Below are positions 15,571 through 53,306 of a stretch of DNA of 54,820 bases, one piece after another. Numbering within the stretch: the stretch's first letter is position 1; each line of letters starts with the position of its first letter. Below the pieces are notes generated by a model. That model worked only from the letters and a program-made list of their open reading frames with translations. It made no database searches and had not been told where the DNA came from. Where the stretch lies: contig PLUM01000107.1 of the NCBI GenBank assembly GCA_003165465.1, positions 531 through 55,350 on the forward strand, in the 5' to 3' direction. This DNA is from Acidobacteriota bacterium (GTDB taxonomy: Bacteria; Acidobacteriota; Terriglobia; Acidiferrales; UBA7541). Made by a program: the position numbers and the translations under genes.

Positions 15571-15622
15571 GTGTTGCGTAAACTGGCGGAAAAACCCCGC
15601 CTCTGAAGAGGCGGGCTACAGC
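15571..15622. repeat. Palindromic repeat family A
   Basis: A GTGTTGCGTAAACTGGCGGA leader is followed by the perfect palindrome CCCGCCTCTGAAGAGGCGGG and the CTACAG border. It lies just after the receptor stop codon. Confidence 0.85.
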
Positions 15623-15646
15623 AATCCGCCGGCGGCATCGCCAATG

Positions 15647-15690
15647 CTGTAGCCCGGGTCTTCAGACCCGGGGATTTCTTACGGCGTTCG
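15647..15690. repeat. Palindromic repeat, covariant form of family A, inverted
   Basis: Read on the minus strand this has the family A layout, but the stem is CCCGGGTCTGAAGACCCGGG. Two base pairs have swapped (C-G to G-C) relative to the neighbouring copy while the CTGAAG centre and CTACAG border are kept. It faces the first copy, making an inverted pair between the convergent receptor and histidine kinase genes. Confidence 0.85.
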
Positions 15691-17236: not shown

Positions 17237-17878
17237 ATGCCACGAAAAACCCGACCATCCGCGCGCGCCTCGCGCAAAAAGAAAAATAGCGACATCCGGA
17301 TTATCGCCCGCGCCAAGTTGCCCACGAAATTCGGCCCGTTTGAAATTCTTGGCATCGAGGGAAAAAACGAGCGCGAAAGTGCGGTGGCGCTTGTCCGCGG
17401 ATCGATTCGCGGCAAAACGCCGCTCGTGCGCATCCATTCGCAATGCCTGACCGGCGACGTTCTTTCCTCCCAGCGCTGCGATTGCCGCGCCCAACTCGAG
17501 CTTTCCCTGCGCCGCATCTCGGGAGTGCCTTCCGGCATCCTGCTGTACCTGCCGCAGGAGGGACGCGGCATCGGCCTCATGAACAAGCTACGCGCCTACG
17601 AATTGCAGGATCAGGGCATGGATACGGTCGAGGCCAATGAGGAGCTTGGTTTTGCGGCCGATACGCGGGATTACGGATTTTCCGCGGAGGCTCTCCAGCT
17701 GCTGGGCGTAAAGCGCGTGCGGCTGCTTTCCAATAATCCGGATAAGGTTCAGCAGCTTGAGGCTGCGGGCATTCGCGTTGTGGAGCGCGTGCCGTGCCGC
17801 CCGCGCACGTCTCGCGTTTCTCGCGCATACATGGAAACCAAAAGAACGAAGCTGGGCCACCTTCTGGATCACGTGTAG
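17237..17878 (+). CDS. ribA: GTP cyclohydrolase II
   Basis: This 213-residue enzyme would open and deformylate GTP at the entry to riboflavin synthesis. Zinc ligands are C70, C81 and C83 (RIHSQCLTGDVLSSQRCDC). The substrate-binding motif is LPQEGRGIGLMNK (residues 105-117), and YGFSAEALQLLGV and RLLSNNPDK follow. It is a stand-alone RibA, not fused to RibB. A basic N-terminal extension (RKTRPSARASRKKK) precedes the core. Its TAG stop coincides with the GTAG border of the downstream palindromic repeat pair. Confidence 0.93.
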   Translation: MPRKTRPSARASRKKKNSDIRIIARAKLPTKFGPFEILGIEGKNERESAVALVRGSIRGKTPLVRIHSQCLTGDVLSSQRCDCRAQLELSLRRISGVPSGILLYLPQEGRGIGLMNKLRAYELQDQGMDTVEANEELGFAADTRDYGFSAEALQLLGVKRVRLLSNNPDKVQQLEAAGIRVVERVPCRPRTSRVSRAYMETKRTKLGHLLDHV

Positions 17879-17950
17879 TAGCGCGGGCTTTAGCCTGCGG
17901 GGTTTCTTCCTAGCAAACCCGAAACCGCGCAGGCTAAAGCCCGCGCCTCT
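17876..17950. repeat. Inverted pair of palindromic repeats (family B, GGCTTTAGCC variant)
   Basis: The left arm is GTAGCGCGGGCTTTAGCCTG and the right arm CGCAGGCTAAAGCCCGCGC, separated by about 30 bases containing GGGGTTT and AAACC. It fills the gap between the convergent ribA and lipoprotein genes and could fold as a large cruciform or serve as a bidirectional terminator. There is no T-tract. Confidence 0.85.
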
Positions 17951-17953
17951 CCA

Positions 17954-19468
17954 CTACGGCGCAGTGTTGTAATACACCGCGCTGCTGAGAGCGCCCGGCA
18001 CGCCGATCGTCCCCGAAAAAGTTTGTCCTCCGAGAAGCAGGAAACGCGGCCCGTTCGTCGTTGGAGCAAGAAGAGGGCTGGTGAATCCGGCGGCATTGTA
18101 CACATTAGCGCCCGGCACAGCGGCTCCGGTCAATCCGCTCCACCCGTTCAAAGCGGAGCTCGTCATGTTAGCTGCGTTGATCGAGGCCGTTTCCATTTCG
18201 CCAGATCCCACCGCGCCAGAGTAAACACCTTCCGCGGCGATGACCTGCCCGAATGCATTATAGACAACGCCCTTGGCGCGGTCATGAATCGTCAGGTTCG
18301 AGTTCAACTGCCAGACGCCAACCGCGCCGCGCACGGCGCTCGCGAAAAAAACGTTCATATCGCCAACCCCTTGCGCGTTCAGCGTACCGGAATTATTCGG
18401 ATCGCCGTTGATGTAGTAGATTACGCCGCCAGAAACGAACATTGTTCCAAAAGCCCGTGCCGTTAGCAGCGTGTTGGTGGCGGTGGCCCAGGTTCCGATC
18501 GTCCCATCGGAATTCACCGGCGCGGAGTACACCGCGCTTGTAGGAATATTGTTGTTCCCGAACAGTCCGCCCGCCACATACAGATAGCCGTTGTGCACGG
18601 TCGCCGACTCGCCCACCAGCGCCTGAGGCAGATTGCTGGTCAGAGTTGTCCAGGTTCCGACAACTCCCGTGGTGGCATTTACGCTGGCCATGTAAATCGT
18701 ATTCGTTCCTCCAGGCGTGTCCGCCGAGTGAACCTGTCCTCCGATAACGTAGATATAGCGTTGGCCAGAAGCTACCAGCGAATTGGAATCGTCGGCTTCG
18801 GCCATGGCATGATGCGCGAGAGTGGACGGGAGCGGACTTGTGGCGATGGTGGTCCACGTGGTATTCGTCGCGCTGCCCACCGTGCCATCCGGATTCAAAT
18901 TGTTTGACCACACGGTAGTCGTATTGGCGTTGGACGTAATATCGTAACCACCGGTAACGATGGCAAACGCGGTGGTGCTGCTCGTGCCGGGCACGCCCAC
19001 GGCGCGCAATCCGCTCAACGCCTTGGGGAGCGCCATGGTCGTTCCCCAGGTCATTCCGCTGGGATTGAAGCTGACGGTCGCGACGAGGTTTAGTGTTACG
19101 GCGGTGCTGGTTCCGCCGGAAGTCGTAACGGTTACGGATACAGTTCCGGGAAGCGTGAAATTCGTAGTGACATTTCCCATGGGCACCAGCGCCACAATGC
19201 CCGTAGCAGACCACGAAGACGCAGCCGGAACCACATCCATCGAAACACTTCCCTGCGTAAAGGTGACTTTTCCGGGTGCCGCTTGAAAGCCCGTACCGTT
19301 GATCTCGATCGGCAGGCCGACGGAGCTGGTCGGCGTAGTCGCACTGTTAATGTTTTGGATGCTGGGAAATGACACAATCGAGTTCGTACTTCTGCATCCA
19401 GACAAGAAAATTCCCATGCCCACCGCCACAACCATGCCAAAAGCCGCCATCCACTTTTGTTGAGCCAT
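17954..19468 (-). CDS. TIG-domain / kelch-like repeat lipoprotein
   Basis: This protein of about 504 residues has a lipoprotein signal peptide (MAAFGMVVAVGMGIFLSGC; lipobox LSGC). A TIG/IPT-like Ig domain (about 30-130, with SSVGLPIEINGTGFQAAPGK) follows. After that come several loosely repeated blades with IYVIGG, LYVAGG, IYYING and FLLLGG motifs, like kelch or galactose-oxidase-type beta propellers. It would be anchored at the cell surface or periplasmic face; the ligand is unknown. I prefer the second ATG (19468) because GGGAG lies nine bases upstream; the first ATG at 19477 touches that site. Confidence 0.75.
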   Translation of the reverse strand: MAQQKWMAAFGMVVAVGMGIFLSGCRSTNSIVSFPSIQNINSATTPTSSVGLPIEINGTGFQAAPGKVTFTQGSVSMDVVPAASSWSATGIVALVPMGNVTTNFTLPGTVSVTVTTSGGTSTAVTLNLVATVSFNPSGMTWGTTMALPKALSGLRAVGVPGTSSTTAFAIVTGGYDITSNANTTTVWSNNLNPDGTVGSATNTTWTTIATSPLPSTLAHHAMAEADDSNSLVASGQRYIYVIGGQVHSADTPGGTNTIYMASVNATTGVVGTWTTLTSNLPQALVGESATVHNGYLYVAGGLFGNNNIPTSAVYSAPVNSDGTIGTWATATNTLLTARAFGTMFVSGGVIYYINGDPNNSGTLNAQGVGDMNVFFASAVRGAVGVWQLNSNLTIHDRAKGVVYNAFGQVIAAEGVYSGAVGSGEMETASINAANMTSSALNGWSGLTGAAVPGANVYNAAGFTSPLLAPTTNGPRFLLLGGQTFSGTIGVPGALSSAVYYNTAP

Positions 19469-23599: not shown

Positions 23600-23993
23600 C
23601 AGCTCGTGGATGCTAACAGTGGTGTTTGAAGGCCGGCCCGGGAATGCACCAGAAAATGGCGCACGGCCATTCACAGGCGATCAGCTTACCAAATTACGAG
23701 AAGCCGCCAAAGAGGATTTGATGACGTACTTACTTCTCCGCTAGACCGGACTTCGCGGCTCAGATGTCGTGCGTCTCACACGCGCTGAGATCGACTGGCA
23801 ATCGGCAAGAAATAACGCGGCAGATATGCTTGCCCGTAGAGCAAGCCCCTACGACGTGGCGAAGCTTTTGAGCGATATTGTTGCGACCGTCGAGAAACAC
23901 TACGCGCCATTCGTGAAGGAACTGCGAAATCGCGCTAGGCGCGTCATGGAAAACAGCAAAGCAGTTAATGGCGGGCAAGCCTGTAAGCCGGAT
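23600..23993 (+). pseudogene. Decayed tyrosine recombinase (integrase) remnant
   Basis: One frame reads ENGARPFTGDQLTKLREAAK, EDLMTYLLLR, then a TAG stop (23742), then TGLRGSDVVRLTRAEIDW, which holds the catalytic Arg region of phage-type integrases. It then jumps to NNAADMLARRASPYDVAKLL, SDIVATVEKHYAPFVKELRN and RARRVMENSK, the C-terminal end with the catalytic Tyr. The central catalytic segment with the Lys and the H-x-x-R box is missing, so there is an in-frame stop and an internal deletion. The N-terminal DNA-binding part is also absent. The remnant ends at the 3' terminus of the RNase P RNA gene. Confidence 0.75.
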
Positions 23994-24472
23994 TCTGTAC
24001 AGCGCGCTCGCGTTGCCGCGTGCGCTCTGTGGCGATCATTCCTCTAGGTCCAGGTTCGCACCTGGACTCCAGCAGCCTACCCGAGGGTCCTAACGAGCTG
24101 GGCGAGCTCTCCCCTCCTATTTGGCCTTGCACCACGCGGGGTTTGCCGTGCCGTCCCGATTGCTCGGGACGCGGTGGGCTCTTACCCCACCGTTTCACCC
24201 TTACCAATGGCTGCCACCTTCCGCAACCCGCTTGCGCGGGCCGCTTTCAGGCCGTCCGAAGGTTTTCCTCCGGATGACCACCGAGGCGCATTGCACTGGC
24301 GGTTTATTTTCTGTGGCACTGTCCGTAGCCGAAACCTCGCCTCGCTTGCGCGAACTGCACGAAGAGCCAGCCCCCTGGCGTTACCAGGCGCGTTGCCCGA
24401 CGGTGTCCGGACTTTCCTCCCGGCCTGCCTTCTTGCGAAGGCCGGCCCAGCGATCACCCGGCTTGCCCGCCA
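23970..24472 (-). ncRNA. rnpB: RNase P RNA, class A
   Basis: On the minus strand the gene opens GGCGGGCAAGCCGGGTGATC and contains the invariant GAGGAAAGTCCGGAC, ACAGAAAATAAACCGCC, GGTAAGGGTGAAACGGTGGG and AGAGCCCACCG. It closes ACAGAATCCGGCTTACAGGC, then TTGCCCGCC. The terminal 12 bases pair perfectly (helix P1). It is the catalytic RNA that matures tRNA 5' ends. At about 500 bases it is longer than typical class A RNAs (about 350-400); the extra length seems to lie in extended hairpins. The 3' end abuts the integrase remnant. Confidence 0.93.
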
Positions 24473-24516: not shown

Positions 24517-27771
<3,255 letters not shown>

Positions 27772-27786
27772 TATTCCTCCTCTACC

Positions 27787-27935
27787 GTGGCGTAGGCTTC
27801 AGCCTGCGCTGTTTAAGTGTCGCCGGGGTTCGCGCCCTGAAATCCATCGTGGCAATTTTTTGCGCGCGGGATTGATGTCGCTTTGCGCCGCGGGCTGTGC
27901 CCTACTTTACGGCGCAGGCTGAAGCCTACGCCACC
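27787..27935. repeat. Inverted pair of palindromic repeats (family B), about 95 bases apart
   Basis: Left GTGGCGTAGGCTTCAGCCTG and right GCGCAGGCTGAAGCCTACGC, then CACC, are inverted copies. The spacer is longer than in other pairs and unrelated to them. The right copy ends 11 bases before the next start codon and leads into its AAAGGA ribosome-binding site. Confidence 0.85.
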
Positions 27936-28935: not shown

Positions 28936-29018
28936 AGTGGCACAGGCTTCGCCTGCGTTCTTTTGATTTTCGTCGGCCACAAATTAAAACCACACAAGCT
29001 GAAGCCTGTGCTACTGAA
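28936..29018. repeat. Inverted pair of palindromic repeats (family B), conserved spacer type
   Basis: The copy runs GGCACAGGCTTCGCCTGCGT, TCTTTTGATTTTCG, GGCCACAAATTAAAACCAC, then ACAAGCTGAAGCCTGTGCTA. The spacer matches that of the pair after ssb, so this is a dispersed unit of about 80 bases and not a chance inverted repeat. Confidence 0.85.
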
Positions 29019-31009: not shown

Positions 31010-31083
31010 CAGTAGCGCGGGCTTCAGCCTCCGGGGTTTAGTCTGGGCAAGCACCAAACCCCGCAGGCTGAAGCCCGCGCTAC
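31010..31083. repeat. Inverted pair of palindromic repeats (family B)
   Basis: Left AGTAGCGCGGGCTTCAGCCT and right CGCAGGCTGAAGCCCGCGCT, then AC, enclose a spacer with GGGGTTT and AAACC as in the pair after ribA. It lies between the convergent DinB-like gene and the bifunctional-nuclease gene. Confidence 0.85.
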
Positions 31084-39012: not shown

Positions 39013-39104
39013 CTTTTCTCTGTGCCCTCTGTGTTCTCTCCGTGTCCTCTCTGTTAAGTCTTTCCGGAAAAGCTTTTAACACAGAGAACACAGAGTTCAA
39101 GGAG
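39013..39104. repeat. Inverted pair of CTCTGTGTT-type repeats
   Basis: The left arm TTTTCTCTGTGCCCTCTGTG, TTCTCTCCGTGTCC and the right arm TTTTAACACAGAGAACACAG, AGTTC are inverted. The TCTTTCCGGAAAAGC between them is itself partly palindromic. The architecture is the same as in the tolQ-tolR gap. Confidence 0.8.
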
Positions 39105-39129
39105 AGTCCGGTGCCGCCTCTGCGGATTG

Positions 39130-39170
39130 CTGTAGCCCGCCTCTTCAGAGGCGGGGGTTTTCGCGGCGTC
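39130..39170. repeat. Palindromic repeat family A, single copy
   Basis: The copy reads CTGTAG then CCCGCCTCTTCAGAGGCGGG and GGTTTTCGCGGCG, a family A element on the minus strand. Confidence 0.85.
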
Positions 39171-39742: not shown

Positions 39743-39826
39743 AGTAGCGCAGGCTTCAGCCTGCGTTCTTTTGACCTTCACCGCGCCACAGATCAAAACC
39801 ACACAGGCTGAAGCCTGTGCCACGCA
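39743..39826. repeat. Inverted pair of palindromic repeats (family B), conserved spacer type
   Basis: GTAGCGCAGGCTTCAGCCTG, CGTTCTTTTGACCTTC, CGCGCCACAGATCAAAACCA, then CACAGGCTGAAGCCTGTGCC. It shares its spacer with the pair at 28936-29018. It lies between the convergent ssb and ABC permease genes. Confidence 0.85.
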
Positions 39827-51014: not shown

Positions 51015-51090
51015 TGTAGCCCGCCTCTTCAGAGGCGGGGGTTTTTGCCGGCGCTACGAAAGTCCCCGCCTCTGAAGAGGCGGGCTACAG
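51015..51090. repeat. Inverted pair of palindromic repeats (family A)
   Basis: TGTAG plus CCCGCCTCTTCAGAGGCGGG and the mirrored CCCGCCTCTGAAGAGGCGGG plus CTACAG face each other with about 24 bases (TTTTTGCCGGCGCTACGAAAG) between. It lies between leuS and the gene for endonuclease IV. Confidence 0.88.
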
Positions 51091-52521: not shown

Positions 52522-53262
52522 ATGGCCAAACTCGACTCGCTGATTGAGGATCTCGTCGCCGCCAATCGCATCCTGGCGAACGAAGGTATCGTGGACGCTT
52601 TTGGCCACATCAGCGCGCGCCACCCGGATGATGATGGCCGCTTCCTGCTATCGCGGGCAATATCACCCGAATTGGTGGAACCCGGCGATATCATGGAGTT
52701 CACGCTCGACGGCGCGCACACCGACTCGGTTCCCGGAAAACCGTACCTCGAACGGTTCATTCACGCCGCGCTCTATCAAACCCGGCCGGAGATTCAGAGC
52801 GTCGTCCACAGCCATAGCCGTGGCCCCATCCCTTTTGGTTTGACGGGCGAAAAACTCCGCCCCGTGGTGCATAGCTGCGCGACCTTAGGGGCCGAGGTCC
52901 CGGTGTGGGACGCGCAAACCAGCTTCGGCGACACGGACTTGCTGGTTTCGAACATGTCCATGGGGCTTGATCTGGCCCGCGCCGTCGGCGACGGCAATTG
53001 CATCCTGATGCGCGGACACGGTTCCACGGTCGTTGGAAAATCAATCCGTGAGGCCGTTTATACGGCGGTGTATTTGGACGTCAATGCCGATCTGCAAATG
53101 AAGGCCAGTTCCCTGGGCAAAGCCACCTTTCTTTCGGCGGGCGAAATTGAAAAGATCAACCTGCGTCTGAGCCAGTCCAGACCGGGAGAGGGTTTTAATC
53201 GATCGTGGGAGTATTGGTGCCGGCGCGCAGGCATCCACTCCAAGCCCGGCGAATCACTGTAG
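52522..53262 (+). CDS. Class II aldolase/adducin-family protein
   Basis: This 246-residue protein has the metal-binding pattern of the family: E77 (LERFIH), H96 and H98 (VVHSHSRG) and a later histidine in LMRGHGSTVVG. The N-terminal FGHISARHPDDDGRFLLSRA and LVEPGDIMEF segments are typical. Members include fuculose-phosphate aldolase and decarboxylases of aromatic ring-cleavage products; the latter fits the aromatic-acid-type transporter downstream (inference). The ATG at 52522 is preceded by GAGGAAT; the frame is open far upstream into antisense nfo. The stop codon lies in a palindromic repeat. Confidence 0.82.
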   Translation: MAKLDSLIEDLVAANRILANEGIVDAFGHISARHPDDDGRFLLSRAISPELVEPGDIMEFTLDGAHTDSVPGKPYLERFIHAALYQTRPEIQSVVHSHSRGPIPFGLTGEKLRPVVHSCATLGAEVPVWDAQTSFGDTDLLVSNMSMGLDLARAVGDGNCILMRGHGSTVVGKSIREAVYTAVYLDVNADLQMKASSLGKATFLSAGEIEKINLRLSQSRPGEGFNRSWEYWCRRAGIHSKPGESL

Positions 53263-53306
53263 CCCGCCTCTTCAGAGGCGGGGATTTTCGCCGGGTGATG
53301 CAACGC
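53257..53306. repeat. Palindromic repeat family A, single copy
   Basis: CTGTAG, CCCGCCTCTTCAGAGGCGGG, GATTTTCGCCGGGTGATGCA, ACGC: a full-length family A copy on the minus strand. Its CTGTAG border forms the last codon and stop of the aldolase gene. Confidence 0.88.

Follow-up and report, generated by a model that had tools for sequence, protein, structure and literature searches.

The window, by which we mean the whole stretch of 54,820 nucleotides that was analysed, comes from the genome of a soil member of the Acidobacteriota and carries many copies of a short palindrome; two of them sit side by side, with the end of a 1114-aa ORF on one side and an opposite-strand ORF on the other. In this focal pair, sequence inspection places CCCGCCTCTGAAGAGGCGGG at 15596-15615 with CTAC at 15616-15619, while the second hairpin occupies 15653-15672 with GTAG at 15649-15652. 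Read on the strand where the border comes first, both follow the same plan of GTAG, a 7-base arm, CTTCAG and the matching arm, and what distinguishes the hairpins at 15596-15619 and 15649-15672 is stem positions 5 and 6, counted from GTAG, where the C-G pairs of the first are G-C pairs in the second; these are the two base pairs that the initial annotation had described as swapped on both arms. The "GCTAC border" of that annotation corresponds, on the opposite strand, to a 5' tag (GTAG/GTGG) at the hairpin's foot, as in GTAG-type REPs, and we therefore take the palindromes to be GTAG-type REP elements. Those of the window are as follows, the source being the hairpin scan unless another is given:

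15596..15619, minus strand: REP B1 (GTAG CCCGCCT CTTCAG AGGCGGG), half of the tail-to-tail B1-B2 pair (sequence and hairpin scan)
15649..15672, plus strand: REP B2 (GTAG CCCGGGT CTTCAG ACCCGGG), other half of the tail-to-tail B1-B2 pair (sequence and hairpin scan)
17878..17899, plus strand: REP of family A type, CTTTAG centre, one G.T pair; inverted partner arm at 17921-17954
24518..24538, plus strand: REP of family A, GTGG tag; head-to-head with 24575-24596
24575..24596, minus strand: REP A1 (GTAG CACAGG CTTCAG CCTGTG); partner of 24518-24538
27787..27808, plus strand: REP of family A, one imperfect pair; head-to-head with 27913-27934
27913..27934, minus strand: REP of family A, one imperfect pair; partner of 27787-27808
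28993..29014, minus strand: REP of family A, one imperfect pair
31012..31042, plus strand: degenerate A2 REP, head-to-head partner of 31062-31083 (inverted repeat)
31062..31083, minus strand: REP A2 (CGCGGG/CCTGCG, one G.T pair on the GTAG strand)
39132..39155, plus strand: REP B1, single
39744..39765, plus strand: REP of family A (CGCAGG/CCTGCG); head-to-head with 39802-39823
39802..39823, minus strand: REP A1, GTGG tag; one compensated stem pair apart from 39744-39765
51016..51039, plus strand: REP B1; head-to-head B1-B1 REPIN with 51065-51088
51065..51088, minus strand: REP B1; partner of 51016-51039
53259..53282, plus strand: REP B1, single

The window was scanned for GT[AG]G followed by a hairpin of at least 7 pairs with at most one bad pair, which gave 22 tagged hairpins against a mean of 1.0 and a maximum of 3 in 40 dinucleotide shuffles; the 22 matches represent 21 places, one palindrome being tagged on both ends. 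A CTTCAG or CTTTAG centre is present in 15 of the 22, in good agreement with the "about 15 loci" estimated initially. None of these 15 sites falls within an ORF of a greedy set covering 85% of the window, making them intergenic within the window, and the four places (of 21) located within long ORFs all lack the CTTYAG centre, so that they are probably chance matches. An Rfam scan of the window returned no family for the hairpins and only RNase P RNA at the gathering cut-off, namely a bacterial class A RNase P RNA at 23968-24469 on the minus strand that adjoins the REPIN at 24518-24596. Inverted repeats rich in CTCTGTG/CACAGAG, of another repeat type, were seen at 39017-39105, next to the B1 copy at 39132, and a palindrome with GTAG on both ends (GGGGCACGGCATTGCCGTGCCCC) at 19823-19851 matches the hairpins that adjoin L103, a weaker RAYT relative in the same genome, and L136 of the same genus.

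The same plan is abundant throughout the assembly to which the window belongs (4.6 Mb in 121 contigs, 89% complete, 6.9% contamination). With centre and border fixed and arms left free, the 7-bp stem class (family B) gave 178 matches against 11 in the reversed control and the 6-bp class (family A) 436 against 43, the high copy number of GTAG-type REPs. Strict patterns matched 471 times for family A and 91 times for family B in this genome, compared with 16 to 195 and 0 to 39 times, respectively, in five other genomes of the genus, with zero control matches for either pattern in any of 61 genomes.

Arms were analysed in the first 100 of the 178 B matches and the first 100 of the 436 A matches listed. 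Among these B matches, all 24 close pairs are inverted, as expected of REPINs, 17 being head-to-head and seven tail-to-tail; all seven B1-B2 pairs are tail-to-tail, with GTAG inside, and the remaining 17 pairs are all head-to-head. The focal element is thus a B1-B2 tail-to-tail unit, and six further such units were present in the fetched loci, with spacers of 17 to 55 bases. When the seven were aligned, a left flank motif like CGTGTTGC was common to five and a right flank motif like GCGTTCG(A/C)GAATC to four. Units of the B1-B1 type are numerous in this genome.

Five fully paired arm sets account for 60 of the 100 B matches listed (of 178), namely B1 CCCGCCT (33), B2 CCCGGGT (10), B3 CTCGCCT (9), B4 CCCGCGT (4) and B5 CCCACCG (4), and the differences between these subfamilies fall on both arms; another seven of the 100 were assigned to no family. 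The short perfect stem and short loop of GTAG-type REPs are therefore found in the 60 B matches with 7/7 pairs, A2 retaining one G.T pair. Pairing reached 627 of 700 cells in the listed B matches (permuted mean 499) and 499 of 600 in the listed A matches (permuted mean 468), values never attained in 2000 right-arm permutations of either set. The asymmetry of wobble pairs on the GTAG strand was considered as a marker of the folding strand and dropped, since the counts for A (56 G.T vs 15 A.C) and B (13 G.T vs 21 A.C) point in opposite directions. Palindromic and intergenic sequences of this kind could also be duplex sites of a dimeric DNA-binding protein, although this is a most improbable reading, given that the arms are exchanged wholesale while the non-palindromic tag and the centre persist, and that the same arms flank RAYT genes.

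Among the B matches listed, 33 diverged copies with one to three changes from the nearest consensus carry 44 changes (one copy owes its two "changes" to unread bases, N), and no pair was altered on both sides, so that a compensated change within subfamilies was seen in 0 of the 33, a count that is partly circular because any compensated variant, once it had spread, would itself be classed as a subfamily. Nor is the left arm better kept than the centre: of 30 loci retrieved through their right arm and border, 26 were recognisable as B1, and these show differences at 5 of 182 left-arm places and at 3 of 156 places in the centre. In two of the 30 fetched loci (L027 and L028, near 1501) the B1 right arm and border are present and the CTGAAG centre is replaced by a much longer, partly paired insert. 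Pairing is therefore a property of the lineages that spread, and no sign was seen of its being guarded in resident copies, which are young and were counted in small numbers.

This bears on the earlier proposal that covarying arms indicate selection on a fold and not on a protein site. The pairing excess between subfamilies is strong, as that proposal requires, but covariation between subfamilies with none within them is no demonstration of a selected folded function in each copy, and a protein is still the likely reader. One-sided arm changes, named beforehand as an outcome that would speak against the proposal, are indeed common, yet pairing is in large excess. The hairpins might instead act mainly as RNA, as terminators or stabilisers of the 3' ends of messages, with stems kept paired for that role at each site; the position of the focal pair, between the end of the 1114-aa ORF and an opposite-strand ORF, would suit this, and such functions have been attributed to some REPs in parts of PMC3733652. 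We regard it as very unlikely to be their main role, considering the fixed tag outside the stem, the 33 diverged copies out of 33 without a compensated change and the left arm being no better kept than the centre, though an RNA role can coexist with REP identity as a by-use.

We are highly confident that the palindromes belong to the GTAG type of REPs, that many of them form one half of a REPIN, and that they are copied by RAYTs that read tag, paired hairpin and centre. Anatomy, copy number, subfamilies, one-sided decay and, in relatives, RAYT genes with the same REPs around them were observed directly, while the recognition rules and single-strand mobilisation would follow by analogy from published work on other REPs. 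According to this model, REPs and REPINs would be small non-autonomous elements that RAYT (TnpA-REP) Y1 transposases copy in single-stranded form, recognising them by three features: the GTRG tag on the 5' side, the pairing of the hairpin and the conserved CTTCAG/CTTTAG centre. The bases of the stem would be free to vary provided that pairing holds, and a source with a compensated stem could therefore found a new subfamily, resident copies afterwards decaying base by base. The reader of the elements is then likely to be a protein acting on the folded single strand, and our data fit a rule of tag, pairing and loop. For other RAYTs, parts of PMC8266576 describe that the GTAG tag matters for cleavage and that two systems depend critically on certain bases of the loop; in E. 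coli binding and cleavage persist when the upper-stem or loop sequence is exchanged for its complement, while two bases of the lower stem matter. Sections of PMC3686654 describe how REPs decay once the RAYT is lost and how new REP variants arise at orthologous RAYTs.

The border is the GTRG tag, and RAYT genes with these REPs on their flanks occur within the genus and the GTDB family, which bears out the initial choice of RAYT-mobilised REP/REPIN elements as the nearest known concept. The RAYT L129, from a genome of the same genus with 16 strict A copies in total (G004), is surrounded by five A REPs with two compensated stems, CACAGACT and CACAGGCT. L133 (G034) has B1 on one side and, on the other, a B1 truncated by the contig end, and its 61% identical relative L143, from another genus, has the REP arms B4, B1 and B4. 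Among more distant relatives of L133, L144 (53%) has the REPs CCGCGGTCT and CCGCCCTCT, and L145 (49%) and L146 (52%) have CTCACCCCT and CTCAGGCCT; for L147 and L148, also related to L133, the flank scan found no such hairpins. These B-clade RAYTs are placed in Acidobacteria, four of them in gp2 MAGs. A profile search of genome contigs with the B-clade alignment gave seven loci and no new RAYT: five matches in Acidobacteria MAGs, one in a Terriglobia MAG and a weak one in Bacteroidales, the first six of which appear by their coordinates to be RAYT genes already in the set. For one of these six, L162, a shared exact 200-mer confirmed that it is L145.

In the 13 B-clade REPs (8 distinct), all 72 cells pair and six of the nine pairs change on both sides, in rows picked by a scan that favours paired arms. 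Their covariation score of 0.746 was reached by none of 500 shuffles and by no slid version, whereas two of the five covariation measures were within the shuffle range (pairs with two-sided change, 100/500; further pair types, 430/500). Clade A (99/95) comprises ten rows of a 62-transposase tree; nine of them are flanked by related GTRG hairpins, invariably of the (C/G)(A/G)CAG type, while the tenth, L137, gave no such hairpin passing the scan. At least two related GTRG hairpins were found at 27 of 76 distinct RAYT loci (L162 merged with L145, and L148 with L081) and in 0 of 390 shuffled copies, L103 and L089 qualifying by one palindrome tagged on both ends; the other 49 loci fail this two-hairpin rule, which is unspecific on its own because 5 of 23 RAYT-free tiles of the REP-rich window also pass. 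A second flank scan dropped the pairing requirement of the first, taking its seed arms from it, and found 72 of 85 GTRG sites perfectly paired (L162 excluded).

The genome to which the window belongs has an NCBIfam REP-associated transposase (L002/L102), a weaker relative (L103), an IS200-type gene (L001) and a fragment (L104). L002 and L103 are each adjoined by a hairpin class of their own, and no A or B1-B4 REPs flank L001, L002 or L103. With the L133 protein as query, a tblastn-type search gave no match in this genome at 1e-20, and within the order 15 of 95 genomes had matches. A RAYT of the kind suggested in the initial annotation was thus found in relatives (L129, L133, L143), while the 89%-complete assembly itself yielded none with A or B1-B4 REPs around it; the corresponding RAYTs are lost or unassembled there, loss itself being possible.

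Two of these genes deserve separate mention. At L001:1204-1954 (contig C98) the IS200-type Y1 transposase lies between two direct copies of a GTAG-tagged B5 hairpin (CCCACCGCTTCAGCGGTGGG), which stand among GGAGGGGC-type palindromes; GTAG hairpins next to an IS200-type and not a RAYT gene look unusual. L104 (C16:247-369), close to the end of a contig, is a short C-terminal piece of a RAYT-like gene, and its candidacy as a dead B-type RAYT was rejected, since it groups with L071 and L064, in the flanks of which the scan found no related pair of GTRG REPs.

The family shares with the GTAG REP superfamily, as treated in sections of PMC3733652 (Di Nocera 2013), the GTRG tag, short perfect stem and short loop, high copy number, inverted pairs, subfamilies with alternative complementary stem residues, homo- and heterodimers and RAYT association. 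The stem switching first taken for a distinctive design is thus already on record, both in those subfamilies and in the differing REP classes at orthologous RAYTs of PMC3686654 (Nunvar 2013), and is explained here as free variation under the rule of tag, pairing and loop. Acidobacteria appear in those sections of PMC3733652 only with TIR-flanked transposases (TIRYTs) and with no GTAG family, whereas the present GTAG family is acidobacterial. With the Pseudomonas and Stenotrophomonas REPINs (parts of PMC3116915 and PMC3686654) it has in common inverted doublets, a cognate RAYT, REPs that differ between orthologous RAYTs and the decay expected after RAYT loss, although loops and arms differ. The class 3 TnpA-Y1 elements of Acidobacteria (sections of PMC6006769) are likewise abundant transposase-linked hairpins, but have the foot CnGA in place of GTRG, and the GTRG terminal motif also sets the family apart from CGTC-type REPs. 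In the main texts of the open-access papers searched, we recognised no report of GTAG REPs with cognate RAYTs in Acidobacteria, and the present data add such REPs with flanked RAYTs in Acidobacteria gp2 and relatives.

The part of the result worth following is the difference between the two ends of the REPINs at RAYT loci. Across 20 distinct RAYT loci, the mean arm difference is 0.95 bases for opposite-strand REPs (78 pairs) and 0.30 for same-strand REPs (54 pairs), a contrast reached by 0 of 20,000 within-locus permutations, which overstate independence because the REPINs of one locus are probably copies of each other; L145 and L146 are, moreover, related. Ten of the 20 loci have no arm shared between strands, five are fully homodimeric and five mixed or one-stranded. 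The 12 loci that have two paired stems show 18 end differences, of which 14 turn C-G into G-C; every one of the 18 falls within stem positions 4-7.

These differences also change the predicted folding. By DNA energies, for which the inner pair of 2-base loops was opened, subtracting the two hairpins from the long one gives -4.8 to +6.1 kcal/mol in 11 distinct hetero-ended REPINs and -11.1 to -8.9 kcal/mol in seven homo-ended ones. The end differences weaken the long REPIN hairpin relative to two separate hairpins, an effect that is expected of any mismatch but of notable size. In a supplementary legend of PMC3116915 (Bertels and Rainey 2011), the long hairpin is considered unlikely to be recognised and a two-hairpin "clover" is suggested as the recognised form. 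As an extension of the REP/RAYT explanation, it is conceivable, though we lean against it, that hetero-ended stems at RAYT loci are selected, mid-stem swaps blocking the long hairpin and favouring two RAYT-usable ones; strand contrast, loci without shared arms, clustered C-G to G-C swaps, folding energies and the legend all point this way, while the probable mutual copying within loci, the five fully homodimeric and five mixed or one-stranded loci, the many B1-B1 units in the genome of the window and the weakening of the long fold by any mismatch argue against it. Only tentatively, then, do we suggest that many acidobacterial RAYT REPINs may be actively kept hetero-ended, with strand-specific stems and recurrent compensated C-G/G-C swaps at stem positions 5-7. 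If so, the swap would remove the perfect long REPIN hairpin and tip the balance to two hairpins, the proposed RAYT substrate, and stem switching would set the mobilisability of a REPIN.

REP heterodimers and asymmetric REPINs as such are already known. The Pseudomonas fluorescens GI REPIN has been described as symmetrical (parts of PMC3116915 and PMC3686654), whereas many loci here are hetero-ended; the two ends of enterobacterial BIME/REPINs differ as well (parts of PMC8049555 and PMC8266576), but by a single-base indel and a bulge, while those described here differ by compensated swaps in perfect stems.
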